Below the pieces are notes generated by a model that worked only from the letters and a program-made list of their open reading frames with translations, did no database searches and was not told where the DNA came from. A stretch of 27,222 nt of DNA from a virus, in the IMG/VR virus record IMGVR_UViG_3300037070_003768, positions 1 to 27,222 of that record. One strand, written 5' to 3'. The translations under genes were made by a program, and so were the position numbers. Positions 1 through 22,851 of the stretch are shown piece by piece. The first letter of the stretch is position 1, and each line of letters opens with the position of its first letter.

Positions 1-133
1 GCAGCGAGCAGTCGCGGATGTCGCGTTGCGCCTTGCGGTCGCGGCCCTGGACCTTGACGCCGAGGGTTTCCAGGCGGGCCACCAGATGCTGGCCGATAAA
101 GCCGAGATGTCCGGTGACCAGAGCGGACTTCAT
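1..133 (-). CDS. NAD-dependent sugar epimerase/dehydratase, N-terminus only
   Basis: Only the first 44 codons are inside the window; the gene runs off the left edge. Residues 6-13 read VTGHLGFIG, the Rossmann dinucleotide-binding loop (GxxGxxG) at the very N-terminus typical of extended short-chain dehydrogenases such as GalE or RmlB. Known members epimerise or dehydrate nucleotide-activated sugars in the cytoplasm. The start codon (131-133) overlaps the stop of the gene upstream as ATGA, so the two minus-strand genes are probably one transcript and translationally coupled. Substrate cannot be judged from this fragment. The context of glycosyltransferase-like genes on the other strand fits a role in making a sugar donor. 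A related reductase of the same superfamily is possible. Confidence 0.75.
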   Translation of the reverse strand, partial: MKSALVTGHLGFIGQHLVARLETLGVKVQGRDRKAQRDIRDCSL

Positions 134-696
134 CCCTTCTCCATCAGTGATTTGAGCGCCGCGTCGTAGGCGGCCTGCCCGGTTTCCTTGGTGTAGCCGA
201 CGCTCTTGACCTCAGTCCCGCCGCCGTCACTACCTGCGATATCGTGGGCGTCGATGGTGATCGACTTGTCGTATTTCTCCACCACCGGCTTGCCGTCCAC
301 GTCGGCACCCAAGTTGATGGTGATGACAAAGCGTTCGCTCAACGGCTTGTCGCCGTTTTTCGCCTCGCCGACGCCCGCGTTCTTGGCCAGGAGTTTGGCG
401 ACGTCGGTGGCCGCCACCAGCGGCTCACGCATGTCGAGCGCACGTCGTGTAATGGCGGGCAACAGCTGCTCCAGATAGGCCAGCGAGCCGATTTTCACCC
501 GGTCCGCTGTCGAGGTGGTTGAATTCCACTCCAGCGTGAACTGTTCTTTCGCCCTCGCAAAGAACTCCAGCTTGCAGATCTCGTAATAGTCGGTCTCGTC
601 GATGCCGAAATCGCTGAAGATCTGCTTGTAGGGGCGGATGTTCATGGCCATTTCGCGGGCCAGCTTCGCCAGGGTGATTTCGTCGAGGTCGATCAT
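130..696 (-). CDS. putative small terminase subunit-like protein
   Basis: This is a 188-residue, mostly helical acidic protein. The reading frame is open further upstream, but I choose the ATG at 694-696 (MIDLDEIT...) because the extension would run into the portal gene and its promoter, and a G-rich stretch (TATGGGG) sits just upstream. Residues 1-100 form helix-rich blocks with a conserved-looking FTLEWNS segment and a run ending in LAKNAGVGE; the tail after residue 120 is beta/loop-like and charged. Proteins with this layout lie next to terminase or portal genes in many podovirus-like phages and are often labelled small terminase or DNA-packaging protein. I see no clear helix-turn-helix, so the call is weak. 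It is transcribed divergently from portal, which is unusual if it is a packaging gene. A regulator or a virion-associated protein are alternatives. Confidence 0.35.
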   Translation of the reverse strand: MIDLDEITLAKLAREMAMNIRPYKQIFSDFGIDETDYYEICKLEFFARAKEQFTLEWNSTTSTADRVKIGSLAYLEQLLPAITRRALDMREPLVAATDVAKLLAKNAGVGEAKNGDKPLSERFVITINLGADVDGKPVVEKYDKSITIDAHDIAGSDGGGTEVKSVGYTKETGQAAYDAALKSLMEKG

Positions 697-719: not shown

Positions 720-753
720 TTAAGCAATTATTAGCATTTGTCTGGTTTCTTAG
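720..753 (+). promoter_or_regulatory. putative phage promoter A, upstream of portal
   Basis: Contains TTAAG (720-724), four bases, then TATTAG (729-734) followed by CATTTGT. The same arrangement recurs without gaps at 7725, 9215 and 12274. The portal ATG at 758 lies exactly 29 nt from the first base of TATTAG, the same spacing as in copy B, and no Shine-Dalgarno sequence precedes it. The downstream CTAG of the other copies is replaced here by CTTAG four to five bases later. Whether TATTAR acts as a sigma-type -10 or as part of a phage-polymerase promoter cannot be told from sequence. Confidence 0.6.
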
Positions 754-757
754 CCCG

Positions 758-3127
758 ATGGCAGACCCACAGCTCAATGGCGGCGGCCCGCTTGGCCAGC
801 AAGGCGTCATGAACGTCGTCCCTCCGGCGGCGTATGAGGCCATGCTGCTGAAGCAGCAGCAGGACAAGGCAGCCCAAATGGCCCCGCAACCGGCGGCGGT
901 AGCGCCCCCGGAGCTGGTCGGCTACATCCGCGCCCAGTTCGAGATGATGCGCAACCATCGCAATACCGCCTCTGGCTGGTCCAACCGGATGCTGGAGGCG
1001 CTGCGCACCTTCAACGGGCAATATTCGCCGACAAAAATGCAGGAAGTGAATAAATTCGGTGGCTCCCAGGTCTATGCCAGGCTAACAGCTCAGAAGTGCC
1101 GGGCGGCAAGCTCGCTATTGCGGGATATCTATCTGGGTCCAGACCGGCCATGGTCGGTGCGTCCGCCTGCGGACCCGGATATCCCCGACGAAATCGTGCA
1201 GAAGATCGACGGCCTCATGCAAAGTGAGGCCCAGATGATCCAGCAGACCACCGGGCAACCGGCCTCTCCCGACGATATCCGCAAGCGCAAGGACTCGCTG
1301 ATGGACAGTGCGCGCGAGGCCGCGCGCAAGAAGGCCAGGCAACAGGCCCAGATTGCCGAGGACCGCATCGAGGAATTCCTGCGCGAGGGCGGCTTCTACC
1401 ACGCGCTGGCCGAATTTCTGGTCGATCTGCCGATTTTCCCGTTCGCCTGCATCAAGGGGCCGGTGGTCAAGATCATGCCGCAGGTGAAATGGCCGCCGGG
1501 CGGGGGGCGGCCTACGGTCGAGCAGGTGCCGATAATGACGTGGGGGAGGACATCCCCGTTCGACCTGTGGTGGACGCCGGGGATTGCCGATATCGAGAAC
1601 GCCAGCGTGATCGAGAAATCACGGCTGACGCGGGCCGAACTTAACGATTGCCTGGACCTGCCGGGTTTCGACCATAACGAGGTGCGGGCGGTACTGGACG
1701 AGTACGGGCGTGGCGGCCTGTACGACAACTGGGACACCACGGACGCGGAGCGCGCGGTGCTGGAGTCCCGAGAGAATCCGGCGTGGAACCGGTCCGGTCT
1801 CATCACCCAGATGGAGTTTCATGGCAACGTGCAGGGCCGCATCCTGCAGGAATACGGCATGCCGGGGGTGTCCGACGAATTGCGCGACTACAGGATCGAC
1901 GCATGGTGTATTGGCTCGCATATCATCAAGGCGCAACTATCGCCTTCGCCGCGTGCGCGGCATCCGTATTTCATTACCTCGTTCGAGAAAGTGCCAGGGA
2001 CGCCGCTGGGAAACGGCTTGACCGAGATGATCGCGGATTTGCAGGATGTCGCGAACGCTACGCTACGAGCCTTGGTCAACAATGTCTCGATTGCGTCCGG
2101 CCCGCAGGCGGTCGTCAACGACGACCGTGTGCTGCCGGAGGACAATACGGACGATATCTACCCCTGGAAGCGGTGGCATGTCAGGAACGATCCGGTCGGC
2201 GACAATGCCAAGGCCCCGGTGGAGTTCTTCCAGCCGCAGAGCAACGCCCAGGAACTCATCATGGTGTTCAAGACCTTCGTCGAACTGAGCGACGATGTGT
2301 CGGCGATCCCGAAGTATATTGGCGGCCAGGCCAGCGGCGGGGCGGGCCGAACTGCTTCTGGCTTGGCCATGCTGATGGGCAACGCCTCCAAGATCTTACA
2401 GACGGTGGCCGCCAACGTTGACAGGGACGTGTTCGAGCTGGCGCTGCAGCAACTGGCCGATCTGGTGCTGCTGTCCGATACATCGGGCATCCTGACCGGT
2501 GAGGAGGACCTTTATGTCCAGGGTGTTTCGGTGGCTGTGCAGCGCGAGACCCAGCGCCAGCGCCAGCTCGAATTCCTGCAGCACACCAACAACCCGATTG
2601 ATATGGGCATCATGGGCAACATGGGCCGTGGGGCCGTGCTTCGCTCTGTATCTCAAACTATCGGTCTAGACGGCGACAAGGTAGTGCCGTCGGACGAGGA
2701 GCTGGAGAAGAAGCAGAAGGCCCAGGACGAGCAGGCCGCCCAGCAGGCCATCGGCCAGAAGGTCGAGCAGGGCATCCAGCTCGGCGTCCAGCAGGGCATC
2801 ACCAAGATCACGGCGGAATTGACCCAGGCGGGCATCGCCCAACAGGCGATGATGGGTCAAGGGATGGGGGCCGGGCCTCCTGGCCAGGGTATGGGTCCGC
2901 CTCCCGGCGGGCCGGGGGGTGGTCCTGGTCAGTCCTCGCCTCCCGGTCAACCGCCGGGTGGGCCGCAACCGCCCGCCAACCAGCAGGAAGCTGCCGGGCA
3001 GGCCCAAGGCAACCAGGCTTCCCCCATGAGCAATCAGTTTGCCCAGCCCGCCAACGTGGTGGGCAACCAGCGGCAACCCCCAGGTCCAGGCGGACGACCG
3101 CCCCCTATCGGAGGCGGACCAGGCTAA
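758..3127 (+). CDS. portal (head-tail connector) protein
   Basis: This 789-residue protein is the likely dodecameric ring at the capsid vertex through which DNA is packaged and ejected. The body (about residues 45-640) is a mixed alpha/beta sequence. The segment around residues 520-570 reads IGGQASGGAGRTASGLAMLMGNASK, shortened here to its landmarks GRTASG and MLMGNASK, which is the hallmark of podovirus-type portals just before the long crown/barrel helices. Residues 650-705 are Gln/Lys-rich and helical. From about residue 705 to the end the protein is almost only Gly, Pro, Gln and Met, a disordered tail; this makes it longer than most portals. It has no Shine-Dalgarno and probably a very short leader. 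The gene heads the first plus-strand block. Confidence 0.8.
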   Translation: MADPQLNGGGPLGQQGVMNVVPPAAYEAMLLKQQQDKAAQMAPQPAAVAPPELVGYIRAQFEMMRNHRNTASGWSNRMLEALRTFNGQYSPTKMQEVNKFGGSQVYARLTAQKCRAASSLLRDIYLGPDRPWSVRPPADPDIPDEIVQKIDGLMQSEAQMIQQTTGQPASPDDIRKRKDSLMDSAREAARKKARQQAQIAEDRIEEFLREGGFYHALAEFLVDLPIFPFACIKGPVVKIMPQVKWPPGGGRPTVEQVPIMTWGRTSPFDLWWTPGIADIENASVIEKSRLTRAELNDCLDLPGFDHNEVRAVLDEYGRGGLYDNWDTTDAERAVLESRENPAWNRSGLITQMEFHGNVQGRILQEYGMPGVSDELRDYRIDAWCIGSHIIKAQLSPSPRARHPYFITSFEKVPGTPLGNGLTEMIADLQDVANATLRALVNNVSIASGPQAVVNDDRVLPEDNTDDIYPWKRWHVRNDPVGDNAKAPVEFFQPQSNAQELIMVFKTFVELSDDVSAIPKYIGGQASGGAGRTASGLAMLMGNASKILQTVAANVDRDVFELALQQLADLVLLSDTSGILTGEEDLYVQGVSVAVQRETQRQRQLEFLQHTNNPIDMGIMGNMGRGAVLRSVSQTIGLDGDKVVPSDEELEKKQKAQDEQAAQQAIGQKVEQGIQLGVQQGITKITAELTQAGIAQQAMMGQGMGAGPPGQGMGPPPGGPGGGPGQSSPPGQPPGGPQPPANQQEAAGQAQGNQASPMSNQFAQPANVVGNQRQPPGPGGRPPPIGGGPG

Positions 3128-3142
3128 CCAAGGAGAACGAGC

Positions 3143-3409
3143 ATGACCACAGGCGCTACCGGACCGACGGGTCCTGCGATCAAGACCTTCTACATCAAGA
3201 CTCGCCGGACCAGTCCGTTTCTCTACGAAACCGTCGAGGCGATGGACCGCGAGATGGCGATTAACCAGCTGACAAGCGCCATTCCCGAGGGCGAGCAGCT
3301 TGAGGTTATGGACGTTACCGACATCACCGGGATGGAGGGGCCGACCGGGACAACCGGTGCGTCGGGTCCGACCGGGACAACCGGTGCGTCGGGAGCCGCG
3401 CGCAAGTAA
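3143..3409 (+). CDS. short collagen-like protein
   Basis: The protein has 88 residues and a good AAGGAG ribosome site at 3130. It starts with a brief Gly-X-Y stretch (GATGPTGP), continues with a small globular segment (residues 12-62, with YIKTRRTSPFLYE and an acidic EGEQLEVMDV strand), and ends with a second Gly-X-Y run built of Gly-Pro-Thr, Gly-Thr-Thr and Gly-Ala-Ser triplets. The globular part is not one I recognise. The stop overlaps the start of the glycosyltransferase gene by one base (TAATG), so the two proteins are coupled. The collagen stretches are probably too short to be stable alone, so it may attach to longer collagen fibres encoded downstream or be a substrate of the neighbour enzyme; both are inference. 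Confidence 0.75.
   Translation: MTTGATGPTGPAIKTFYIKTRRTSPFLYETVEAMDREMAINQLTSAIPEGEQLEVMDVTDITGMEGPTGTTGASGPTGTTGASGAARK
3341..3394 (+). repeat. tandem 27-bp duplication in collagen-like tail
   Basis: Two adjacent 27-base units (3341-3367 and 3368-3394) differ only at the last base. Each encodes the nine residues PTGTTGASG. The near identity points to recent duplication by slippage or unequal recombination, the usual way collagen-like repeats change length. Confidence 0.9.
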
Positions 3410-5409
3410 TGTCGCGTTTGATATGGAACGCCATCGTCAAGAACGAGGCAGCGATCATCGACCGCTGCGTCAGCTCACTGTTGCCGCATATCGACGGTGC
3501 CGTCATCGTCGATACCGGCTCCACCGACAAGACGATTGACATCCTGCGGACACGGTTCAAGCAGGCCAACAAACCCATCGAGGTTTATTTACAGGATTTC
3601 ATTGATTTCGAGGACGCCAGGAATTGGGCGTTGTTTTACGCGCGAGAGAGTGCGCTGGAGTGGGATTACCTCCTGCTGGCCGACGCCGACATGGAGTTGA
3701 AGGTCAACAAGCCCAATTGGCTCAACGGCGCGAAGGGATTGTCCTATGACCTCAAGCAGACCGCCGGATCCGTTGGATATTATAATCGACGAGTGGTTAG
3801 TCGCGCAGCTGCAGGCCAGTACGTTGGCGTCACGCATGAGTATCTTGACGTGGCAACGGACGGTTGCCTTGATGGCGCTGAGTTTATCGACCATGCAGAT
3901 GGAGCTAACCGGCCTGAAAAGTTCAGCCGCGATATTGCCCTTCTTGAAAAAGCCCTCGAAACCGAGACTCGTCCCGGACTGATCCAGCGATACCACTTTT
4001 ACTTAGGCCAGTCCTACTTCGATGCGGGCCAGTGGGCCAAGGCGGCGGAGCATTACAAGATACGGACAGAGCTGGGCGGGTTCGACGAGGAAGTGTGGAA
4101 TGCGCAACTGCATTACGCGCACTGTCTGGAAAACCTTGGCGACAAACCTGGATTCCTCTGGGAATTGCTACGGGCCTATCAGCTTCGTCCACATCGAGTT
4201 GAGTCGTTGTACGATCTTGCCAAATATTTCCGGGAACGAGGTGACAACCAGGCTTCGTTGCTCTTTTCCGAATCCGGAATGCGCGTGCCGTACCCCAAAG
4301 ACGATCTGCTGTTCGTCAATAATTACGTATATCGAACTGGCCTGAGAGAAGAATACGCGATCTGCGCCTACTACGATTCGCACCAGCGGCATCGTGGTGC
4401 CAAGGTTTGCAACGCGCTGGCGCTGGACAAGAATGGCACGCATCAATCGCGCGAGCAGGCGCGGGCCAACCAGTATTGGTACCTGAAGCCGCTGGGCCAG
4501 CACGTCGAATCCTTCGATCCCAAGCTAATCGAGTTCGAGCCAGAGCCGGGCTGGGTGCCGATGAACCCCTCCATCATCAACTGGAGTGGTGCACCATCGC
4601 TATTGGTTCGCACCGTGAACTACCGAATTACGCCAGAGGGGGTTTATGCAATACGGGGACGTGACGGTACTTATAGTCGGGAGCATCCTATTAATACTCG
4701 TAATTATCTTCTCAATCTGGATTACGAACTGAATGTCCAATTTAGCGCTGAAATAGAACTGCCGGAGAACTGGCCGGAAGCCAAATACGATCTGGTGCGG
4801 GGATTCGAGGATTCCCGGCTGTTCCAGTGGCACAACCAGTTATGCACGCTTTCGACGGTGCGGGAGCTGAATGCCGGAGGCTGGTGCGAGCAGGTGCTGG
4901 CCCCGATTCTGATTCATGACGGCAAGGCGCGCTATGGCCCCTGGCAGCAAATTTTGCTGCCCAACCGCCAGAACGAAAAGAACTGGATGCCCTGGGTGCA
5001 GGGTGACGTCATCAAATACGTCTACCGGCTGGGCACCCTGGTCGATAGCCAGGGCATGCAGACCTTCCACCGCGATCCGGATCTGGACATTGGCCATATC
5101 AGCGGTGGCTCGCAGGTTTGCACGGCGGAAGGCATTCACATCGCCGTGGTGCATGAGGCCCGGCACATTCCAGGCAGCCCCTGCCGTTACTACCAGCATC
5201 GCTTCGTGACCTTCGCCAACGACGGCGGAGTGCTGCGAATGTCGCCGCCGTTCGTGTTTCACGAACGGCAGATCGAGTTTGCCGCCGGGCTGGCCTACTT
5301 CCCCGATAAAAGACAGCTGATGGTGAGTTACGGGGTTCGGGACTGTGAGGCTTGGGTTGCCACCATGGACCTCGACGACGTGATTGCCTTTATCGCGGAG
5401 GGATCATGA
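3409..5409 (+). CDS. family 2 glycosyltransferase fused to TPR and beta-propeller domains
   Basis: The protein has 666 residues in three parts. Residues 1-180 are a GT-A fold, family 2 glycosyltransferase: KNE at 11-13, the nucleotide-binding DTGSTD at 35-40, ARN at 70-72 and the metal-binding DAD at 92-94. Residues about 190-345 carry helix pairs like tetratricopeptide repeats (YFDAGQWAKAAEHY, YDLAKYFRERGDNQAS). Residues about 380-660 resemble a five-bladed propeller of the GH43/GH130 type, with NPSI, RGFEDSRLF (about 464-472), KNWMPW, SGGSQV and a closing FAAGLAYF...VSYGVRD. Known GT2 enzymes move a sugar from a nucleotide donor to an acceptor. The propeller may bind or trim glycans. It follows the short collagen-like gene with a one-base overlap and overlaps the next gene as ATGA. 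A host glycan or a virion protein are both possible acceptors. Confidence 0.8.
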   Translation: MSRLIWNAIVKNEAAIIDRCVSSLLPHIDGAVIVDTGSTDKTIDILRTRFKQANKPIEVYLQDFIDFEDARNWALFYARESALEWDYLLLADADMELKVNKPNWLNGAKGLSYDLKQTAGSVGYYNRRVVSRAAAGQYVGVTHEYLDVATDGCLDGAEFIDHADGANRPEKFSRDIALLEKALETETRPGLIQRYHFYLGQSYFDAGQWAKAAEHYKIRTELGGFDEEVWNAQLHYAHCLENLGDKPGFLWELLRAYQLRPHRVESLYDLAKYFRERGDNQASLLFSESGMRVPYPKDDLLFVNNYVYRTGLREEYAICAYYDSHQRHRGAKVCNALALDKNGTHQSREQARANQYWYLKPLGQHVESFDPKLIEFEPEPGWVPMNPSIINWSGAPSLLVRTVNYRITPEGVYAIRGRDGTYSREHPINTRNYLLNLDYELNVQFSAEIELPENWPEAKYDLVRGFEDSRLFQWHNQLCTLSTVRELNAGGWCEQVLAPILIHDGKARYGPWQQILLPNRQNEKNWMPWVQGDVIKYVYRLGTLVDSQGMQTFHRDPDLDIGHISGGSQVCTAEGIHIAVVHEARHIPGSPCRYYQHRFVTFANDGGVLRMSPPFVFHERQIEFAAGLAYFPDKRQLMVSYGVRDCEAWVATMDLDDVIAFIAEGS

Positions 5410-6080
5410 TTACCGCCGTCACCGGCTTCGTGCCGATCCCCGGATACCCGCGTTCGGAAGCGACCTATCGGGCGCTGGGGCGCAGGCTGCTCGATTGCGG
5501 CATTCCCATCATGACGCTGGAGAACGACCTGGAGGAGTGCTGGCTGTACGAGTTCCTGGAGGATCGCGGGCGCATGCCGACCCATTCGGTCAGCGACAAT
5601 CCGGACAAGAACACGCTGGCCTACCACATCGTGCAGGCGCAGAAGTCGGAGTGGCTGGCGCTGGCGGCGACACAGAACCCGGAAGCCGAGGTGCTGGTCT
5701 GGATCGACTACGGGATTTTCCATATTCCGGACATAACCCCTCAAATCGTCAGGGATTTCATGGCGCGGGCGGCGGGTGAGAAGACTATCGCGATTCCCGG
5801 CTGCTGGGACGAGGACTACATCTATGACGATCACCATCCGTGCTGGCGGTTCTGCGGCGGGGTGATCGTGGTGCCGAGGCGCTACGTGTTCGCGTTCGAC
5901 CGCGCCATGAAGCGCGAATACGTCCGCTGGATCGACCAGACCAACAACCTGTCCTGGGAGGTCAACACCATCGCCAGGATCGAGCGGAACGAGCCGGATC
6001 TGCCGATCTGGCATTACCAGGCCGACCATGGCCGGATGCTGTTCACTGAATACAAAGCGGGGGTGGAAAATGCCCTATGA
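5406..6080 (+). CDS. HtrL/YibB-like putative glycosyltransferase
   Basis: The ATG at 5406 overlaps the previous stop (ATGA) and has GGAGGG upstream, so I prefer it to the longer frame starting at 5352. The product has 224 residues. It opens with a strand and VTGFVPIPGYPRSEATY, then has VLVWIDYGIF near residue 100 and a WRFCGGVIVVPR block near 155, ending in WHYQADHGRM. This order (early Arg/Tyr motif, WIDxG, FxGGxxxxP, C-terminal DH) resembles the HtrL/YibB/WlaTC family, which is linked to surface glycan synthesis. WID could be the metal-binding equivalent of DxD. No signal peptide or membrane helix is seen. It lies in the same operon as the glycosyltransferase, which supports a sugar-transfer role. 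Family assignment is by eye. Confidence 0.5.
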   Translation: MITAVTGFVPIPGYPRSEATYRALGRRLLDCGIPIMTLENDLEECWLYEFLEDRGRMPTHSVSDNPDKNTLAYHIVQAQKSEWLALAATQNPEAEVLVWIDYGIFHIPDITPQIVRDFMARAAGEKTIAIPGCWDEDYIYDDHHPCWRFCGGVIVVPRRYVFAFDRAMKREYVRWIDQTNNLSWEVNTIARIERNEPDLPIWHYQADHGRMLFTEYKAGVENAL

Positions 6081-7050
6081 TCGCGTGGTTATTTCTTCCG
6101 GGCACGGGCTGTACGTTCGCGGCGCGTCCGGGGTGCTGGACGAGGTGGACGAGGCCCGCAAGGTGGTGGAGCAGGTGGCTACGGCGCTGCGGATGGGCGG
6201 CATCGAGACGGTCACCTACCACGATGACGTCAGCAAGACCCAGAACGAAAACCTGAACCGGATCGTGGACTTCCATAATAGCAAGGCCAGGGACCTCGAC
6301 ATCAGCTGTCATTTCAACGCCTACCAAAGCACGTCCAAGCCGATGGGAACGGAGGTGCTGTACATCACCCAGCATGAACTGGCCAAGAAGATGTCGGCGG
6401 CGATTGCCTCTGTCGGGTTTCTCAACAGGGGCGCGAAAAAACGTAACGACCTGTTTTTCCTCAACCACACGGCGATGCCCGCGATTTTGCTGGAGGTTTG
6501 CTTTGTGGACAGCCAGGCCGACGCCAAGGTCTACCGGGACAGTTTCGACGTCATTTGCAACGAGATCGCGTTCGCGCTGGGGGCTGATTTCGACGGCGAC
6601 ACTGCAATAGAGTTACCCCCTCCGGAAGAAACAGCAGACGAGCTGCTGTGTGCGGGCAAATGTTCGTATTTCGGCGGGCCTGACGATACCGGGGTCAGTC
6701 CCCAGGAAGGGCTGGCGTTTCATTACGATGTTACAAAAACCAACCAGCATCTGTTTCTGCCGTTCGACAATGGGCTGGGTTTAGCCAGAAGGTTAAATCC
6801 CTGGGTTCATTATGTGGCGTGCCGGTGGGATTATGCCGTTACCCCCAAAACAATGCTGGCTAACTCTGGACAGCTGGCGCTGGTGCGCGCAATCAAGACC
6901 GGGCGTGAACTGACCGCCATTCCGGCGGACTGGGGACCGCACCAGGACACTGGCAGAGTGGCCGACCTTTCGCCCAGTCTGATGGCCGATCTTGGAATCG
7001 AGACTGACGACGAAGTAGAGGTTATTTACCCGTACAAAGGAGACACATGA
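6070..7050 (+). CDS. endolysin: N-acetylmuramoyl-L-alanine amidase with C-terminal DPBB-like domain
   Basis: The 326-residue protein starts at ATG 6070, inside the end of the previous gene (11-base overlap). Residues 1-185 are an Amidase_3 (zinc amidase) domain: His12 in SSGHG, a Glu at 28 (or 25) in DEVDEARKVV, His81 in SCHFNAY as zinc ligands, and catalytic Glu142 in LLEVCFVD. Such enzymes cut the amide bond between N-acetylmuramic acid and L-alanine in peptidoglycan. After a Pro/Glu linker (about 187-197), residues 205-326 include ADWGPHQDTGRVADLSPSL and LGIETDDEVEV, the signature of a double-psi beta-barrel as in RlpA-type proteins; here it may bind the wall or be a second hydrolase domain. 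There is no signal peptide, so release would need a holin; it could instead be a virion-borne lysin, given the structural context. Confidence 0.85.
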   Translation: MPYDRVVISSGHGLYVRGASGVLDEVDEARKVVEQVATALRMGGIETVTYHDDVSKTQNENLNRIVDFHNSKARDLDISCHFNAYQSTSKPMGTEVLYITQHELAKKMSAAIASVGFLNRGAKKRNDLFFLNHTAMPAILLEVCFVDSQADAKVYRDSFDVICNEIAFALGADFDGDTAIELPPPEETADELLCAGKCSYFGGPDDTGVSPQEGLAFHYDVTKTNQHLFLPFDNGLGLARRLNPWVHYVACRWDYAVTPKTMLANSGQLALVRAIKTGRELTAIPADWGPHQDTGRVADLSPSLMADLGIETDDEVEVIYPYKGDT

Positions 7051-7634
7051 TGCATCCGTTCCTTGCGATGATCGTTCCGATGGGTGGTTCTATCGGTGGT
7101 GGAGGCCCGGTCGATCCCGGCTATTCGCCGCCGTGGGCACGGCCCAATCCTCCAGGCCAGCCGCCATTGGGGATCTGGGGTCCGACCGACCCGCGTCCGG
7201 GTTATGGCCTTCCCGGCAACCAGCCCTATCCCGACCAGGGTCTTCCCGGTAACCAGCCGTATCCGGATCAGGGTCTTCCCGGCCAGCAGCCGCGCCCGTG
7301 GGATCCGATTCGTTATCCCGACCAGGGCCTGCCGGGCAGCCAGCCGAGGCCGGACCAGGGATTGCCAGCTTTTCCCAGCCATCCGATTTACATCCCGCCG
7401 GTAGGCGCACAGCCGCCGCTGGGGATCTGGGGACCGACCGATCCGAGGCCGGGTTACGGCCTGCCGGGCGAGCAGCCGAAACCGACGCATCCCATCGTGA
7501 TTCCGCCCGACCTGCCGCCGACCACACCCGAAGGTGGCCGGATCGAATGGAAGACGGCGTGGACGCCCACCACCGGCTGGGTGGTGATCGGGATTCCGCA
7601 GGAGCCACATCCAACGCCGTCGTCTAGCTTTTGA
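7047..7634 (+). CDS. Pro/Gly-rich repeat protein of unknown function
   Basis: This 195-residue protein starts with tandem ATGs overlapping the lysin stop (ATGA) and a strong AAAGGAG site. After a hydrophobic N-terminus of about 18 residues it is almost all Pro, Gly, Gln and Asp. A 19-residue block (PPLGIWGPTDPRPGYGLPG) occurs at residues 39-57 and again at 123-141, framing four copies of PDQGLPG. The last 40 residues (GRIEWKTAWTPTTGWVVIGIP) look like a small folded beta segment. The composition suggests an extended, flexible linker-type virion protein. It is the last gene before the terminator. I do not recognise a functional family. A short N-terminal signal or anchor is possible. Confidence 0.7.
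   Translation: MMHPFLAMIVPMGGSIGGGGPVDPGYSPPWARPNPPGQPPLGIWGPTDPRPGYGLPGNQPYPDQGLPGNQPYPDQGLPGQQPRPWDPIRYPDQGLPGSQPRPDQGLPAFPSHPIYIPPVGAQPPLGIWGPTDPRPGYGLPGEQPKPTHPIVIPPDLPPTTPEGGRIEWKTAWTPTTGWVVIGIPQEPHPTPSSSF
7161..7470 (+). repeat. internal repeats in Pro/Gly-rich protein
   Basis: A 57-base unit at 7161-7217 is repeated at 7414-7470 with synonymous changes, encoding identical 19-residue peptides. Between them lie four shorter units encoding PDQGLPG or PDQGLPA. Synonymous divergence with conserved protein sequence indicates that the repeats are old and kept by selection. Confidence 0.85.
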
Positions 7635-7696
7635 GTCAATTGGGGAACGGGTGTCCCGTACCCTCCGGTCGATCATCGAACCGTAACGACAGTCCA

Positions 7697-7723
7697 GGGG
7701 GGCGGGAAACCGCCCCTCTTTTC
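7697..7723 (+). terminator. intrinsic terminator closing the portal-lysin block
   Basis: A perfect GGGGCGG (7699-7705) and CCGCCCC (7710-7716) stem encloses a GAAA tetraloop, followed by TCTTTT. It sits 62 bases after the last stop codon and directly before promoter B, so it separates two transcription units. Confidence 0.9.
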
Positions 7724-7724
7724 A

Positions 7725-7753
7725 TTAAGTAAATATTAACATTTGTTCTCTAG
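7725..7753 (+). promoter_or_regulatory. putative phage promoter B, after the terminator
   Basis: TTAAG (7725-7729), N4, TATTAA (7734-7739), N10, CTAG (7750-7753). It begins just two bases after the terminator T-tract. The ATG at 7763 is 29 nt from the first base of TATTAA, as in copy A, and there is no Shine-Dalgarno sequence. The terminator/promoter pairing is the best contextual support for calling this motif a promoter. Confidence 0.7.
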
Positions 7754-7762
7754 CCTCGCCGT

Positions 7763-8044
7763 ATGGTTGACGAGGTAAAAAGCTGGGTCAGAGAGAATTC
7801 TGCGCTGGTCTATTTTTTGATCGCGCAGATGATCGCTATTGGCGCAGGTGCGGCCTCCATTCTTGCTTATGCCGTAAAATTAGAAACCAGAGTCTCGATC
7901 ATGGAAGAACGCGGCGCGGCCTATACCGTCGCGAGAATGGATGAGTTGAAATATAAGATCGCCGTGCTTGAACAGCAGATTGATAAAAACGAGGACTCGA
8001 TCAAGCGTATCATCAACGAATACCTGAAAGACCGGCCAAAATGA
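7763..8044 (+). CDS. small membrane protein with coiled coil (holin or spanin candidate)
   Basis: This 93-residue protein has a single hydrophobic segment at about residues 14-38 (LVYFLIAQMIAIGAGAASIL) after a charged N-terminus, then a heptad-like region (residues 40-90, VARMDELKYKIAVLEQQIDKNEDSI). Small one-helix proteins with a coiled coil are common in phage lysis cassettes, either as holins or as inner-membrane spanin subunits. It follows the lysin gene by 0.7 kb but is in a separate transcription unit. There is no Shine-Dalgarno in front of the ATG; initiation on a leaderless or very short leader mRNA is likely. A non-lytic structural or membrane role cannot be excluded. Confidence 0.65.
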   Translation: MVDEVKSWVRENSALVYFLIAQMIAIGAGAASILAYAVKLETRVSIMEERGAAYTVARMDELKYKIAVLEQQIDKNEDSIKRIINEYLKDRPK

Positions 8045-8271
8045 TCGAGCGTGGTGGCAATATCGCAGGCGTGCTCGACGTCATGAAGGCGCAGCCGCTG
8101 ATCCTTGGGCTGCTGCTGGTTATTTTTGCGTTGATCGGTTTTGTCTATTTACAGTCTTCGCAATTCAACGACCAGCGCGCCGAGAATGTGAAGTTGTTCG
8201 TGCAGGTTCAGGGCGAAGTCCAGAAGCTGCTTTCCCAGTGCATCGTGCCGCCGCCACCTAACAGGAGCTGA
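8041..8271 (+). CDS. small single-helix membrane protein (lysis candidate)
   Basis: This 76-residue protein overlaps the preceding gene as ATGA. Residues 19-37 (PLILGLLLVIFALIGFVYL) form one strong membrane helix, followed by a polar, partly helical region and a tail with a single Cys and a Pro run (QCIVPPPPNRS). No lipobox is seen at the N-terminus, so it is not an Rz1-type lipoprotein. Paired with the previous one-helix gene it looks like a two-component holin or holin/antiholin or an unusual spanin pair. Assignment rests on size, topology and position. Confidence 0.6.
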   Translation: MIERGGNIAGVLDVMKAQPLILGLLLVIFALIGFVYLQSSQFNDQRAENVKLFVQVQGEVQKLLSQCIVPPPPNRS

Positions 8272-8273
8272 CC

Positions 8274-9218
8274 ATGGCCATATCCGTCATATCCGGCCTC
8301 ACGATTCCGGCGGGGCAATCGCTGTCGAATGCGGTCGATTGCGCCGGGTTTCAGATCATTCGTATTGTTTGTCCGGACGGCTGGACGGCGGCTCCGCTAA
8401 CGTTCCAGACGTCGGCGGACAATGTGACGTTTCATGATTTGCAACACATCCAGAGTGCGACGGGATCTTTTGTAGCCTACGAAACAACGGTTGCCACCGT
8501 GAGGCCGGGAACGGTGCTGGCGATGCCGGTCAATACCGGGGACCTGATGGCCTGGGTCAAGATTCGCTCCGGCACCAGCGTGCTGCCGGTGAAGCAGGAA
8601 GCGGATCGGGTATTCAGCCTGGAGGTATACCCGAAGGCGTCGGGGGCAGGGGTAGAGGGACCAGAAGGACCGATTGGCCCTCAAGGTCCTACTGGTACGC
8701 CTGGTACGCCTGGTACGCCCGGCGCTGCCGGTGTGACCGGCCCTGCAGGCGCTGCGGGACCAACTGGCCCAGCAGGCTCCGGCATAGGCGTCACCAACGG
8801 CAGTAACGCGGCTGCGGGCATGATTGGCGAGGTCATCAGTGGCAACAACGCCGCTGGCCTATCGCTGACAACCAACGTCCCAGCCAACCTTATTACGATC
8901 ACGCTGACTCCCGGCGACTGGAATGTCGGCAGCATCACCACCTTCACTCCGGCAAGCACTGGCGCAAACGGACTCGCTTCCGGTATCACGCTGACGTCGG
9001 GTACGTTGCCGACCGATGCGGAGATTACGTCCGGCGTAGGCATTTTGAACCAGCTGTGGGCGTCCTCGATGCCTTCGAACAAGGTCCAGAATATCCCGAC
9101 CTCGCTGGTCCGGGTTAACACCGCTACGACGAAGAGCGTCTATCTGGTGGTGATGGCGTCGTTCGGCGGCGGCACGGTGACGGCGACCGGATATATGTCG
9201 GCCCGGCGGGTCCGTTAG
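8274..9218 (+). CDS. virion decoration or fibre protein with central collagen-like stretch
   Basis: The 314-residue protein has three parts. Residues 1-125 are beta-rich (SGLTIPAGQSLSNAVDC, then WTAAPLTFQTSADNVTFHDL), like the small beta-sandwich found in phage decoration proteins. Residues about 128-170 are Gly-X-Y triplets (GPEGPIGPQGPTGTPGTPG). Residues 175-314 are beta-rich with PGDWNVGSITTF and a C-terminal VTATGYMSARRV, a pattern seen in jelly-roll tips of phage fibres. A good CAGGAG site precedes the ATG and only two bases separate it from the membrane gene before it. The collagen part likely trimerises the tip. It may bind a receptor or decorate the head. Confidence 0.65.
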   Translation: MAISVISGLTIPAGQSLSNAVDCAGFQIIRIVCPDGWTAAPLTFQTSADNVTFHDLQHIQSATGSFVAYETTVATVRPGTVLAMPVNTGDLMAWVKIRSGTSVLPVKQEADRVFSLEVYPKASGAGVEGPEGPIGPQGPTGTPGTPGTPGAAGVTGPAGAAGPTGPAGSGIGVTNGSNAAAGMIGEVISGNNAAGLSLTTNVPANLITITLTPGDWNVGSITTFTPASTGANGLASGITLTSGTLPTDAEITSGVGILNQLWASSMPSNKVQNIPTSLVRVNTATTKSVYLVVMASFGGGTVTATGYMSARRVR

Positions 9219-9243
9219 TCTTTTATTAAGGGTTACGGGCTAG
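9215..9243 (+). promoter_or_regulatory. putative phage promoter D, upstream of head genes
   Basis: TTAGT at 9215-9219 (overlapping the stop codon of the previous gene), N4, TATTAA (9224-9229), N10, CTAG (9240-9243). It keeps the exact spacing of copies B and C but the first box differs from TTAAG and the N10 is unlike the others, so it is the weakest copy. A normal AGGAGG ribosome site and the ATG at 9274 follow. Confidence 0.45.
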
Positions 9244-9273
9244 TTTTTGTGGGAATCAACAGGAGGCTTTCCT

Positions 9274-9498
9274 ATGGCGGGAAAATTCAAAGGCGAATCC
9301 GAGAAGGATGTCACCTTCGCGGAAGGCGGCGACACCCCGATGTTCGGTCCGCAATCGGCGGGTCCGGACAAGCCGGGAAATACCGGCAAGGACACCGGGT
9401 CAGCGCCTGGTGCCAAGTTCGCCAAGGGCGGATCCGGCAAGATGTTCGGCTTTAGCCCGTCGCAGGACAAGGAAGCCGGTAAAACAGGACAGCGCTGA
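9274..9498 (+). CDS. small Gly/Lys-rich head-region protein
   Basis: I choose ATG 9274 because of the AGGAGG at 9261-9266; a TTG further upstream in frame is not credible. The product is 74 residues, rich in Gly, Lys, Ser and Asp, with no hydrophobic core. It carries FAEGGDTPMFG near the start and FAKGGSGKMFG near residue 47, an internal imperfect duplication of FAxGGxxxMFG. The FAKGG motif recurs in the protein encoded at 12783. Genes of this kind are often found just before scaffold/coat genes in podovirus-like phages, function unknown. Stop and next start overlap (TGATG). Confidence 0.7.
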   Translation: MAGKFKGESEKDVTFAEGGDTPMFGPQSAGPDKPGNTGKDTGSAPGAKFAKGGSGKMFGFSPSQDKEAGKTGQR

Positions 9499-9707
9499 TG
9501 GCCAGGGGACCGAAGCTCATCAAGGAGCCGAAGCAACCCAAGCCGATGGACCCCAACAAGGCGGTGCTGAACCCGCCGCGCATGCGGCCCACCTCCACAC
9601 GCAACTACGGCAAGGGCGGCACGCCGTTGTCGGGTGCGCCCGACATGGGGCTGCGCGGTGCCGGGATTGGCTATGGTGGGCCGGGAGGGATCAAATATGG
9701 CTTTTAA
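9498..9707 (+). CDS. small basic Pro/Gly-rich protein
   Basis: This is a 69-residue basic protein without predicted fold: Lys/Pro-rich first half (GPKLIKEPKQPKPMDPNK) and Gly-rich second half ending GGPGGIKYGF. It contains TRNYGKGG, matching TRNYGK in the protein encoded at 12783. It begins inside the stop of the previous gene and its end overlaps the next start by 11 bases. Likely a minor virion component or nucleic-acid-contacting peptide; function unknown. Confidence 0.7.
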   Translation: MARGPKLIKEPKQPKPMDPNKAVLNPPRMRPTSTRNYGKGGTPLSGAPDMGLRGAGIGYGGPGGIKYGF

Positions 9708-9948
9708 GAAGGACCTGACCAAGCTCACGGCCAAGGGCCGGATCGACACCAACCGGGGCAAGGGCTCCACCACCCAGCGCACCGCGCCGCGCGAGATGGA
9801 AACCCTGACCGGCGGCAACCCGCTGCAGCGGATGATGAATCAATATCCGGCGGCCCCGCAACCAGCTCCCACGCCATCCAGGGCGGCGGATCTTACGCCG
9901 TCACCGACGGCATCGATGCCGTCGCTGGGGATTCCAGACAAGGCATGA
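9697..9948 (+). CDS. small protein of unknown function in head-gene cluster
   Basis: The start at 9697 (MAFKKDLTK) is preceded by GGGAGGG and lies 11 bases inside the previous gene; the longer frame from 9634 would overlap too much. The 83-residue product is basic in its first third (KKDLTKLTAKGRIDTNRGKG) and Pro/Ala/Thr-rich at its end. No family is recognised. It is one of four tiny coupled genes before the scaffold. Confidence 0.65.
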   Translation: MAFKKDLTKLTAKGRIDTNRGKGSTTQRTAPREMETLTGGNPLQRMMNQYPAAPQPAPTPSRAADLTPSPTASMPSLGIPDKA

Positions 9949-10166
9949 GTGCGTCAACCAAGGACATTTCGGCTCACGCGCGCTTTATCCGGAATGCCGC
10001 GCCACAGGTGTACGAGGATTTCTGCAAGGAATTCGAGAAGTACACGGAAGCATCGATTGTCGCCGTGATTGAAACAACGGGTGAAGAACTGGTTCGAGCG
10101 CAAGGACGGGCGCAGCAATGCCTGAAGATCCTGCGCGTTCTGCAGGAGGTTAAGAATGGCAATTGA
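9945..10166 (+). CDS. small helical protein of unknown function
   Basis: The 73-residue protein overlaps the previous stop (ATGA). Unlike its neighbours it is compact and helical: HARFIRNAAPQVYEDFCKEFEKYTE, then a second helical part with GRAQQCLKILRVLQEV. No membrane segment or metal motif. It is probably a small helical-bundle virion assembly factor, in view of its direct overlap (11 bases) with the scaffold gene; this is inference. Confidence 0.65.
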   Translation: MSASTKDISAHARFIRNAAPQVYEDFCKEFEKYTEASIVAVIETTGEELVRAQGRAQQCLKILRVLQEVKNGN

Positions 10167-11208
10167 TGTGACGGTAGATGCCACCCCGAAACAGCAGCTG
10201 CCCTACGATCCCAACGATATTCCGGAGGCGGTCAGGGAGCGCGCGGCGCGCATTGACGCCCTCTATTCGAATGGCCCGTCAGCGGATATCCCCCCTGCTG
10301 GCGAGCCAGGGCCTGTCCAGCTTCCACTGCCTGGGCTGGAGCCCCCGCAGGCACCGCCGGTAAACCAGCCTTCTCCGGCGGCGTCTGCGGAACGTGCTGC
10401 GGAGCCCGACGAACAATCCTGGCACCATCGCTTCCTGGCGATGCAGGGGCGTTACAATGCCAGCCAGCGAACGCTGGGCGAAATGCAGGAGCAGATGGTG
10501 CAGCTGGGCAACGAGCTGGTGCATGCCCAGCAACAGCCCGCGCCGAGGCAAGAGCCACCGCGAAGCAATGTGGAAGCGCCGCGCTACCTGACCGACAAGG
10601 ACGTGCAGGATTACGGCCCTGACCTGGTGAACTTCACCCAGCGCGCGGCTGCCGAAGCCATTGCGCCGCAATTGATGGCGCTCGACCAGCAGAATCGCGA
10701 ACTGCAGGCAAGGCTGGCGCAGGAAGCGCGTGCCCGGCTCGACATGAGAGTCGAGGCGGCGATACCGAATTTCAGGGACATCGACCGCGACCCGCGCTGG
10801 CACCGCTGGCTGCTTGGCATTGACATGCTATCGGGACGTGTGAGACAAACCCTATTGGACGAGGCAATCTCAGCGGCGGATGCCCCTAGAGCTATCTCGT
10901 TCTTCCGTGGATTCCTCAATGAGGAATTCGCCACGGGCCACATTGAGCCAGCGTACTCTTCTCAGCAGGCAGCGCCTCCTAGAGAAGCGGCGGTCCCCCT
11001 GGCTTCATTAGCGGCTCCTGGCAGGGCGAGGCCAGCCACCGGAGGAGACTTCGGCGGGTTGCCCGAGAGCCGTCTATACACTCGCGCTCAAATTTCCCAG
11101 CTCTACACCGCGCACCGTAAGGGTGCCTATGTCGGTCGTGAAGCTGAGTGGAACCGTCAGGAGGCCGACATCATCGCGGCTGGCCGGGAGGGGCGCGTCC
11201 AAAATTAA
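10156..11208 (+). CDS. capsid scaffolding protein
   Basis: The 350-residue acidic protein sits directly before the coat gene, the standard place of scaffolds. Residues 1-80 are Pro/Ala-rich and disordered. Residues 85-210 hold long helices (SWHHRFLAMQGRYNASQRTLGEMQEQMVQL is quoted here only by its landmarks FLAMQGRY and LGEMQEQMVQL; later LMALDQQNRELQARLAQEARARLD). The C-terminus has YTRAQISQLYTAHRKGAYVG and ends in basic residues, matching the coat-binding tail seen in scaffolds of T7- and P22-like phages. It would nucleate procapsid assembly and leave the head before DNA packaging. Sequence divergence in this class is high, so position is half of the evidence. Confidence 0.75.
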   Translation: MAIDVTVDATPKQQLPYDPNDIPEAVRERAARIDALYSNGPSADIPPAGEPGPVQLPLPGLEPPQAPPVNQPSPAASAERAAEPDEQSWHHRFLAMQGRYNASQRTLGEMQEQMVQLGNELVHAQQQPAPRQEPPRSNVEAPRYLTDKDVQDYGPDLVNFTQRAAAEAIAPQLMALDQQNRELQARLAQEARARLDMRVEAAIPNFRDIDRDPRWHRWLLGIDMLSGRVRQTLLDEAISAADAPRAISFFRGFLNEEFATGHIEPAYSSQQAAPPREAAVPLASLAAPGRARPATGGDFGGLPESRLYTRAQISQLYTAHRKGAYVGREAEWNRQEADIIAAGREGRVQN

Positions 11209-11210
11209 CC

Positions 11211-11257
11211 GGGGGCCGCGCAACCAAAATCAGTAGCCCCCAATCACAGGGGTTACT
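11211..11257 (+). promoter_or_regulatory. two mutually exclusive hairpins in front of the coat gene
   Basis: One stem pairs AGTAGCCCC (11232-11240) with GGGGTTACT (11249-11257), nine pairs with one G-U, loop of eight; its 3' arm contains the only plausible ribosome site (AGGGG, 11248-11252) of the coat ATG at 11261. A competing stem pairs GGGGGC (11211-11216) with GCCCCC (11236-11241) and would free that site. Both share the C run, so only one can form. The upstream stop codon ends at 11208, close enough for a terminating ribosome to cover the first G run. Confidence 0.45.
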
Positions 11258-11260
11258 GCT

Positions 11261-12277
11261 ATGCCAATTCCCAGCGCAGGTTTTGCTGGCGCAACATCGG
11301 GCTCATTGCCCGCGCTTACGCCTGTCGGCTCTACACCCAACAACCTCCAGACCACCGGTTTTATTCCCGAGATCTGGTCCGCCAAGCTGGTGGAAAAGTT
11401 CTACGCCTCGACGGTGTTATCTGCGATTTCCAACACCGACTATGAAGGCGAGATCCAGAACCAGGGTGATCGCGTCAAGATCCGCACCAAGCCCACCATC
11501 ACCATTCGTGACTACAAAGCGGATGGCCTGCTTGGGCTCGACCGCCCGACCGGCGGCTCCGTCGAACTCTATATCGGCACCGGCAAATACTTCTCGCTGA
11601 TCCTCGACGACGTGATGGAGGTGCAGTCCGACCTCAACCTGCTGTCGATGTGGTCAGACGACGCCGCCCAGCAGCTCAAGATCGTGGTGGATCGTGATGT
11701 GCTTGGCAGCATTGTCGGCACTTCCGCCGTCGGCAACAAGAGCGATACGGCTGGCATCATCTCCGGCAACATCAACCTTGGCAAAAAGGGCACCCCGATC
11801 ACCATGGTGGGCCGCCAGGCCAATCCGGTGGTTGCCGGACAGGTCGAAATCATCGACGTGCTGCTTCGCCTTGGCCAGTGCCTGGACGAGCAGAATATCC
11901 CGGAGACGGGACGCTGGGTGGTGATGTCGTCCGCTGCCGGACGCCAGATCAAACAGTCCGAACTCAGGCAGGCTTACCTGTCCGGGGATCCGGTGTCGAT
12001 GCTCAGGAACGGCAGGCTGGGGATGGTGGACCGTTTTACCATCTACATCAGCAATTTATTGCCGTCGTCAGCTACCGACGCGACCAACTTCGCGGCCAAC
12101 GAGCAGCCGATCTTCGCCGGGCACAGCCATGCCCTTACGTTCGCAAGCCAAATTTCAAAAGTCGAAACGCTGCGCTCTGAATTGACCTTCGGCCAGATTC
12201 TTCGTGGCCTGCAGGTCTACGGCTTCCAGGTGGTTGATCCCACCGCGCTTTGTGAAGCCCGCGTTCTGCTGGCTTAA
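11261..12277 (+). CDS. major capsid (coat) protein
   Basis: This 338-residue protein has the size and layout of a HK97-fold coat. Early residues (FIPEIWSAKLVEKFYASTVLSAISN) form the N-arm and first helix seen in podovirus coats, followed by an extended E-loop like part (GDRVKIRTKPTITIRDYKADG), the long spine helix region (DDAAQQLKIVVDRDVLGSI), and a P-domain (RWVVMSSAAGRQIKQSELRQAYLSG, with GRWVVMS typical of this class). The C-terminal third (HALTFASQISKVETLRSELTFGQILRGLQVYG) is typical of coat proteins that end in a beta sheet/A-domain. The gene follows scaffold after 52 bases holding a putative RNA switch; its stop codon overlaps promoter C. Confidence 0.9.
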   Translation: MPIPSAGFAGATSGSLPALTPVGSTPNNLQTTGFIPEIWSAKLVEKFYASTVLSAISNTDYEGEIQNQGDRVKIRTKPTITIRDYKADGLLGLDRPTGGSVELYIGTGKYFSLILDDVMEVQSDLNLLSMWSDDAAQQLKIVVDRDVLGSIVGTSAVGNKSDTAGIISGNINLGKKGTPITMVGRQANPVVAGQVEIIDVLLRLGQCLDEQNIPETGRWVVMSSAAGRQIKQSELRQAYLSGDPVSMLRNGRLGMVDRFTIYISNLLPSSATDATNFAANEQPIFAGHSHALTFASQISKVETLRSELTFGQILRGLQVYGFQVVDPTALCEARVLLA

Positions 12278-12302
12278 GCATTTATTAATATTCTCCCTCT
12301 AC
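12274..12302 (+). promoter_or_regulatory. putative phage promoter C, upstream of connector genes
   Basis: TTAAG (12274-12278, including the coat stop codon TAA), N4, TATTAA (12283-12288), N10, CTAC (12299-12302). Spacing is identical to copy B. The motif runs straight into a perfect 11-bp hairpin that begins at the CTAC box. Confidence 0.6.
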
Positions 12303-12327
12303 GCTCCTCCGTCAGCGAGGAGCGTAG
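12299..12327 (+). promoter_or_regulatory. perfect hairpin burying the ribosome site of the first connector gene
   Basis: CTACGCTCCTC (12299-12309) and GAGGAGCGTAG (12317-12327) form an uninterrupted 11-bp stem with a seven-base loop. The 3' arm holds the Shine-Dalgarno GAGGAG and ends at the base before ATG 12328. There is no T-tract, so it is not a terminator. It could be a 5'-end stability hairpin, an RNase III site or a translation control. Confidence 0.75.
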
Positions 12328-12786
12328 ATGGCAACATCCCCTTCCTATCATGGCAATTTCAGCGACCGGGACCACCCGACGCTGGCCAACGTAATTGATT
12401 ACGTCAACGATGCCAGGACCTTGCTGCAGGATAAAATTCCTCCCTACCGCTACGACGATTCCTCGCTGCTGATTGCTCTGAACATCACCATGCTGGAGGC
12501 CCGCAGGCTTCGGGCGGACCTGTTCGTCTTCAAGCTGGAGTCGCGGGGCCAGGTGCAGTCGTTCACCGAGGTGGACGACACCTATGTCGATATCGAGCCC
12601 CAGTTCCGGCTGGCGATCCTGCACGGGATGTGCGGCCACGCGCTGGAGCGCGACCAGGAGGACGTCCAGGACGTCCGCGCCACCACTTTCTTGGGCATGT
12701 TCAACGCCGGGTTGATCGGACGCTCGCTGGCTGGTGTGGCTGGTGGCACGCCGCCTGGCGGGCAACAGGGTGGAGGCCAGGGATGA
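12328..12786 (+). CDS. head-tail adaptor protein candidate
   Basis: The 152-residue protein has an N-terminal helical region (LANVIDYVNDARTLLQDKI), then YRYDDSSLLIALNITMLEARRLRADLF, the pattern of podovirus adaptor proteins that dock on the portal. A middle acidic beta stretch (FTEVDDTYVDIEPQFRLAIL) and a helix (HGMCGHALERDQEDVQD) follow; the last 20 residues are Gly/Gln-rich. It lies directly after the coat gene, as in many short-tailed phages. It would form the ring between portal and tail nozzle. The next gene overlaps as ATGA. Confidence 0.6.
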   Translation: MATSPSYHGNFSDRDHPTLANVIDYVNDARTLLQDKIPPYRYDDSSLLIALNITMLEARRLRADLFVFKLESRGQVQSFTEVDDTYVDIEPQFRLAILHGMCGHALERDQEDVQDVRATTFLGMFNAGLIGRSLAGVAGGTPPGGQQGGGQG

Positions 12787-22152: not shown

Positions 22153-22850
22153 TGGCCACATATTCGAACACGCCTTCGCAAATCATGGCGCAACCGGTGG
22201 TGGTTGTCGGCGGACCGACCGGCCCTGCCGGGGGTGCTACCGGTGTATCCGGCCCGACCGGCAATACCGGGCCAACCGGTTTGCTGGGGGGAATCGGACC
22301 GACAGGCCCACAGGCTACCGGACCGACAGGCCCGCCGGGTATCGGCGCGTATACCGGGCCGACCGGACAGACCGGACCGCCGGGGTCGTATGGTGGGGTT
22401 GGATCGGTGGGACCGACCGGGCCTCCCGGCCCGCAAGGGCCTGGGTTCGCGCCAGCGCAATTGTTCACCACGCATATCGGGCCGTTCGGTCCCTTTGGGA
22501 CGACGCCGACGGCGCTGGGCCTTAACCGGACCTACATCGCCTACGGCAACGCCATCAAGCTGGCGTTCAACGGCATGGTCAACAACACCACCGGGGGCGG
22601 GGTTACCATCGAAATGCGCTACGGCACCGGTACCGCTCCGACTGCGGGGGCGACGACGGGACTGGGTACGCTGTTCGGCATTCCGATCCACCACTTCAGT
22701 TCAGACGCGGCGGGCTGGACCAGTTTTACCATCATGGGACAATACTACCTGAACTACGGCACGACCTACTGGTGCGACCTGGTGGTCACGTCAACGAGCG
22801 GGGTAGGTGCCAGCGTCAAGGACCTCCAATTCCATATGATTGCGCTCTGA
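22152..22850 (+). CDS. collagen-like fibre protein, short stalk
   Basis: The ATG at 22152 overlaps the stop before it (TAATG), giving 232 residues; the GTG four codons upstream is not needed. Anchor [20 protein letters not shown] is the version of the shared anchor closest to that of 14181. Residues about 20-97 are Gly-X-Y triplets with only minor breaks. The tip (98-232) is beta-rich and begins [18 protein letters not shown], ending [11 protein letters not shown]; it looks like a small trimeric jelly roll but no family is certain. Presumably an accessory fibre. Confidence 0.75.
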
Positions 22851-22851
22851 C

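Follow-up and report, generated by a model that had tools for sequence, protein, structure and literature searches.

We analysed a 27 kb virus fragment of 61% G+C (IMG/VR record IMGVR_UViG_3300037070_003768, 27,222 nucleotides, hereafter the window), whose genes make up a phage virion module with portal, major capsid and head/connector proteins as assigned by PHROGs. Four copies of one motif on its plus strand, at 720 (site A), 7725 (B), 9215 (D) and 12274 (C), are very probably, as judged from the sequence, real start signals for the particle-building genes. They are likely to function as activator-dependent promoters of virion genes, which the host sigma-70 RNA polymerase would use together with a phage-encoded CtrA-like activator devoid of receiver domain. 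This reading relies on a fixed -10 offset, on the same genes being headed by sites in relatives, on the presence of such a regulator in relatives and on the joint absence of regulator and sites.

Recovery of the motif by an independent matrix

In an initial annotation, the motif had been described as TTAAG-N4-TATTAA-N10-CTAG, and all four copies were found at the positions it gave. The boxes are present, but the core is better written TTA(A/G)-N7-TTA(A/G), followed by 11 nt and TANNNT, with half-sites 11 bp apart. Sites B (TTAAGTAAATATTAA, 7725..7739) and C (TTAAGCATTTATTAA, 12274..12288) carry an exact TTAA-N7-TTAA. Site A (TTAAGCAATTATTAG, 720..734) is a CtrA-type full site TTAA-N7-TTAG and site D (TTAGTCTTTTATTAA, 9215..9229) reads TTAG-N7-TTAA, each with one mismatch; allowing at most one mismatch, no place in the window beyond these four matches TTAA-N7-TTAA. 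We also confirmed that D deviates in its first box, the first half-site being TTAG, and that A keeps only the first two boxes, with TTTCTT where CTAG was expected. The described placement was correct as well: A lies between divergent genes, D and C overlap the stop codons of the upstream genes (the 8274-9218 frame and the major capsid gene, respectively), and B stands just downstream of an intrinsic terminator (7696..7719, plus strand).

A scan with the exact pattern, allowing up to 3 mismatches, recovered B, D and C, with an expectation of 0.02 from shuffles. Since this pattern had been read off the copies themselves, a fairer test was made with an independent weight matrix. Relatives (80) were found in IMG/VR through the portal protein, genes of the near-complete ones were predicted with a simple purpose-made gene caller, and the matrix was trained on 29 TTAA-N7-TTA(A/G) sites of relatives, each 20-110 nt ahead of a predicted gene, with the window left out. 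In the window, the top four positions were 12274 (33.3 bits), 720 (30.5), 7725 (26.7) and 9215 (22.0). They were followed by the minus-strand readings of A (CTAATAATTGCTTAA, 18.1 bits), B (14.0) and C (7.3), the next unrelated position reaching 3.6 and shuffles at most 11.2. The earlier statement that the window holds no further copy thus stands, except that copy A scores on the minus strand too.

When near-complete relatives were searched with the pattern, almost all unselected matches fell in predicted intergenic DNA, in most cases 20-110 nt ahead of a start codon, and the reversed matrix used as control gave almost no matches; matrix counts in relatives are partly circular for the training genomes, though not for the window. 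A comparison of coding and intergenic hits, proposed in the initial annotation as a check, therefore favours the motif. The view of promoter-like elements heading gene blocks is supported.

A CtrA-type full site upstream of a predicted -10 element

We then considered the position of TANNNT relative to the first T of 193 non-redundant sites in relatives, with 44 other offsets as background. TANNNT was present at offset 26 in 35 of the 193 sites, compared to a mean of about 1.8 and a maximum of 6 at the other offsets. The same fixed offset gives predicted -10 elements, all on the plus strand, for B (TAGCCT, 7751..7756), D (TAGTTT, 9241..9246) and C (TACGCT, 12300..12305); site A has no TANNNT there. 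The corresponding starts of D and C would be at about 9253 and 12312. If TANNNT is the -10 element, the double half-site spans about -38 to -24 from the predicted start. In a consensus scan of the window, no TTGACA-like -35 hexamer with a 16-18 nt spacer was listed at the sites, as the initial annotation had noted for the TTGACA box. In Caulobacter, activating CtrA full sites have their 5′ end near -35, e.g. at -39 (PMC4287350; also PMC11264516), and half-sites over the -10 repress (PMC4287350). Given these positions and the -10 at offset 26, the predicted promoters have the geometry of a CtrA activator site combined with a sigma-70-type -10.

In the mechanism that we propose, a CtrA-type full site at about -38 to -24 would replace the -35 box upstream of the TANNNT -10, and sites A-D would be read by the host sigma-70 RNA polymerase. 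The activator would most likely be a phage-encoded, receiver-less CtrA-like winged-helix protein, produced from a gene upstream of the terminase genes. It would be made earlier in infection and would then switch on the virion genes. What we infer here is that the window phage has the gene, that its protein binds the sites, that binding activates rather than represses, and the timing.

A receiver-less CtrA-like protein in relatives

A Trans_reg_C match (OmpR/CtrA-type, E<=0.001) was obtained in 9 of 11 larger relatives, and the other two also lack sites. A profile search detected the regulator family in 24 portal-derived loci, among them L001, the closest relative, whose portal is 92-94% identical to that of the window and whose regulator gene (1000-1509) lies about 3.5 kb before the portal. 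By synteny, the regulator gene of the window phage would lie just beyond the left end of the record, at roughly 2.7-3.2 kb from it if arranged as in L001.

The regulator, of about 160-260 aa, is composed of an N-terminal helix-turn-helix (HTH)-like domain (ADEGVPLRAIARA...DWPPG) and a C-terminal winged helix, and carries no receiver. Of 21 members, 20 had a Trans_reg_C match (E<=0.01), and the best NCBIfam match of the L065 and L060 proteins was CtrA, through its DNA-binding part only (E 7e-10 and 1e-6, respectively). With the CtrA model NF045991 itself, the regulator gave 39 bits over positions 159-221 of 224 only, far from the equivalog score of 350 bits, and where this model has a phosphoreceiver the AlphaFold model of the regulator (pLDDT 89) shows a helical HTH-like domain. 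The recognition-helix segment reads KIVDVFICKLRKKL in L065 and KIIDVFICKLRKKL in Enterovirga CtrA. Foldseek top matches of the regulator model were response-regulator DNA-binding domains, at E of only 0.1-0.3, and VIA-align scores were below 8 for any fold; the fold match alone was not used as evidence of kinship. A single regulator protein gave no match by sequence in the PDB, and the profile matched response-regulator DNA-binding domains there. In tblastn searches of cultured phages, the window-clade regulator gave one weak match only, and the L065 version found roseo-/rhodobacter phage proteins. Two members (L004:5488-6051 and L012:5881-6450) carry a short tandem repeat, RALHQ x3, between the two domains.

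Association of the regulator with the sites

The genes that follow the sites in relatives are homologous to those of the window: terS/portal (A), the 74-aa open reading frame (ORF) at 9274 (D) and the gene at 12328 (C). An A-type site occupies the same position before the portal in most regulator-positive relatives. The gene of site D is the one headed by strong sites in G001, G002 and G003, and the gene of site C is also headed by a site in these three and in G006. G001, G002 and G003 have a fourth site, ahead of the gene for a protein of 795-933 aa, and the regulator gene of G004 is itself preceded by a site, at a distance of 72 nt.

For association counts, similar portal regions were clustered first, and a strict site pattern near the portal was scored. 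Of the 47 regulator-positive clusters, 32 had a portal-proximal site, whereas the 5 regulator-negative clusters had none (Fisher p 0.006); the background in random windows was 2.5%. No site was found anywhere in the near-complete regulator-negative genomes G010, G011 and RHph_TM27A. Regulator-negative relatives carry instead a sigma-70-like TTGTTC-N17-TAGAAT before the 9274 homologue. Upstream of the portal in the regulator-negative clade L030, L033-L035 and L046, a CCCTATAACATTTCCCGCCAATAGGG-type inverted repeat replaces the CtrA-type site and may serve another regulator as operator. In L167, L175, L176 and L179, the sites upstream of the portal are variants whose half-sites are separated by 8 nt, and a palindrome-like TTACCGTGGCGGTAA recurs near promoters in distant relatives (L059, L064, L065 and G006).

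Several observations weigh against a phage-encoded activator of these sites. The Fisher p of 0.006 treats clusters as independent, and the absences amount to only about three events, since mapping the regulator label on the portal tree takes three changes, one for the nested clade L030-L057, one for L026 and one for the outlying RHph_TM27A. No strict portal-proximal site was found in 15 of the 47 regulator-positive clusters; among these, L018 has a near-variant, and L129 and L151 have a site elsewhere nearby. The regulator gene is not within the window, whose record is truncated, and the regulator of L001 falls under the Pfam cut-off without any NCBIfam match, the recognition region having diverged in the window clade. 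Finally, a prophage of another type in Enterovirga aerilata (L126, G012:C8 ~111579-112043) encodes a regulator homologue, and no TTA(A/G)-N7/8-TTA(A/G) was found in 65 kb.

Alternative readers of the sites

The main rival, which we regard as possible but unlikely, is that host CtrA, phosphorylated in a cell-cycle-dependent manner, reads the sites and makes virion genes follow the cycle of the host (‘lytic deferment’), the phage protein being otherwise employed or a modulator. The consensus TTAACCATTTCTTAAG fits an alphaproteobacterial CtrA site, host CtrA binds and regulates promoters of three unrelated phages (PMC9437464), and the only bacterial genome in which a regulator homologue was found also encodes CtrA. 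However, loss of the sites in close regulator-less relatives would be unexpected unless those phages changed host too, and most second half-sites read TTAAG or TTAGC, not TTAAC. Lytic deferment also goes with sites gathered in one gap region or terminal repeat, whereas those described here are single, stand before virion genes and are spread over the virion operons, with no dense arrays.

A repressor role of the CtrA-like protein is considerably less probable. The sites would then overlie a constitutive promoter and virion genes would stay off until the protein is removed. The overlap with the -35 region, where a bound protein could block polymerase, is compatible with this, and CtrA represses one phage promoter (PMC9437464). 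On the other hand, the sites have no consensus -35, in contrast to the TTGTTC-N17-TAGAAT of regulator-negative relatives, as if an activator had replaced the -35. Moreover, it is full sites at such a distance that activate in Caulobacter, repression being exerted by half-sites over the -10 (PMC4287350).

The initial annotation had suggested a phage-encoded polymerase or a modified host factor as reader. A phage-supplied factor is probably involved, but a single-subunit RNA polymerase or a phage sigma factor is very improbable, in spite of the ungapped, repeated and similar elements at block heads which first suggested it. The element can be divided into a repeat of activator type and a TANNNT at an offset fitting sigma-70, and relatives encode a CtrA-like protein. 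When 7 large ORFs of two relatives were compared with Pfam, DNA polymerase A and an SNF2 helicase were matched and no RNA polymerase; PF00940 (RNA polymerase) gave no match in the 11 larger relatives, a weak negative as the controls were silent too. Chance AT-rich words, conspicuous as they would be in the gaps of a 61% G+C sequence, can practically be dismissed in view of relatives-only matrix scores far above shuffles, the near-zero reversed-matrix control, the fixed -10 offset, the fixed 38-39 nt distance to ATG and the same genes in relatives.

Site A and the two genes that flank it

The portal gene (758..3127, plus strand; portal/head-tail adaptor PHROGs) has its ATG 38 nt after the first T of site A, and this ATG at 758 coincides with the predicted transcription start. 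On the other side, a divergent gene (130..696, minus strand), without Pfam match, is probably the small terminase subunit gene (terS), as judged by its position beside the large terminase in RHph_TM27A; its ATG at 696 is 38 nt from the minus-strand reading of the site. The 696-758 interval of the window and the equivalent place in many relatives are near-symmetric, with ATGs 38 nt on both sides, usually without Shine-Dalgarno sequence. Among relatives' sites with a downstream ATG, it was located at 38 or 39 nt in 33 of 117. A Shine-Dalgarno-like word was present in 3 of 41 sites with the ATG at 36-40 nt versus 26 of 62 with the ATG at >=50 nt. These spacings suggest that site A is probably bidirectional and that the terS and portal mRNAs are leaderless.

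Genes and hairpins downstream of B, D and C

Site B heads a 93-aa membrane-protein-like ORF (7763..8044, plus strand), which matches neither PHROG nor Pfam entries. The predicted start of B, 7763, coincides with its ATG. The ORF has homologues in relatives, although no B-equivalent site was found there. Site D heads the 74-aa ORF (9274..9498, plus strand), whose homologues (47-72% identity) lie behind an equivalent site in relatives, and site C heads a 152-aa gene (12328..12786, plus strand; phrog_23601) whose orthologues follow site C in relatives. Elsewhere in the window, long collagen-like G-P-T repeats occur in predicted virion/tail proteins (14181-15476 and 22140-24531).

A hairpin at C (12298..12328, plus strand; CTCTACGCTCCTCCGTCAGCGAGGAGCGTAGATG) has its 5′ arm over the -10/-1 region and a 3′ arm that includes GAGGAG, the ribosome-binding site for the 12328 gene. 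Its folding energy was -22.6 kcal/mol (z -6.3). For this score, dinucleotide shuffles of the whole leader were used, because shuffling the upstream arm only is a poor control: pyrimidine-rich arms pair anyway (20 observed, 12.8 expected). In L006, L009 and G001 the sequence of the C hairpin is changed and its pairing is kept (z -5.6 to -7.1), G006 being the exception (-0.3). Hairpins at the D sites of several relatives are similar (z to -5.8), but that of the window is not (z -0.5). Transcripts beginning at the predicted start would lack the 5′ arm but keep the 3′ arm with the ribosome-binding site. The hairpin at C, and those at D in several relatives, would thus form and hide this site in read-through RNA only, and not in promoter-initiated RNA.

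Implications and comparison with known systems

Taken together, we tentatively consider a broader scenario, which may well not hold in full: a soil-phage lineage would have captured the DNA-binding half of CtrA, the master regulator of the cell cycle in Alphaproteobacteria, and would use it, receiver-less and fused to a second HTH domain, as a late activator of its own, thereby uncoupling its virion genes from the host cell cycle, or imposing them on it. This scenario would include a packaging promoter that is leaderless and acts in both directions, and transcription starts at which ribosome-binding sites are unmasked only in mRNA initiated at the promoter. If so, phages would meet host cell-cycle control in two ways, by sensing host CtrA, which is known, or by bringing a constitutive CtrA mimic, as proposed here. 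It would also provide a predicted late-gene switch, together with promoter prediction, for a widespread and mostly uncultured group of soil phages. A receiver-less CtrA-like protein recognising host sites could in addition disturb the host's own CtrA regulon. The leaderless bidirectional start and the hairpins opened by promoter choice suggest that promoter use is coupled to translation.

In the pho box, tandem half-sites 11 bp apart lie about 11 nt upstream of the -10, at promoters without -35. The tandem geometry of PhoB/OmpR-type activators is thus similar to that described here, where the half-sites are CtrA-like and the regulator has no phosphoreceiver domain. In T4 late genes such as gene e, early read-through mRNA hides the ribosome-binding site, and the late start, like that predicted for C, lies inside the masking hairpin. 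The T4 promoter type is unrelated to ours, for which masking is predicted from sequence.

Receiver-less CtrA-type winged helices are likewise present in RDJL Phi 2 (gp32), RcGingersnap (gp59) and vB_PmaS-R3 (a ‘CzcR-like’ protein), annotated as regulators. They differ in the N-terminal part: gp32 of RDJL Phi 2 is devoid of the HTH-like part, and in the other two this part is of different sequence. In scans of these three genomes, each showed a single isolated site, and no site was seen in front of portal or capsid genes; an extension of the regulator-site link to these phages was rejected on account of this result.

CtrA promoters of Caulobacter and other Alphaproteobacteria (TTAA-N7-TTAA) share with the sites described here the half-site word, the 7-nt spacer and the position (-38 here, e.g. 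-39 there, PMC4287350). They differ from them in the second half-site, here usually TTAAG or TTAGC, and in the location, here phage virion operons. phiCbK-like phages encode a GcrA homologue (PMC3556154), and host CtrA binds and regulates promoters in phages Delta, phiCbK and Cp1R7A-A1, where sites are concentrated in gaps or terminal repeats (PMC9437464). CtrA sites in phages are therefore known, whereas a late activator of CtrA type that is encoded by the phage and has this regulon appears to be a new form; searches of an open-access library yielded no paper on a CtrA-like activator of virion genes encoded by a phage, and one elsewhere is possible. As alphaproteobacterial phages with CtrA-type sites in their intergenic promoter regions, Delta, phiCbK and Cp1R7A-A1 resemble the phages studied here (PMC9437464). 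In those three phages, however, many sites lie beside a small group of uncharacterised genes and are read by host CtrA, in contrast to the present arrangement of one site per virion block and a phage CtrA-like protein in relatives.

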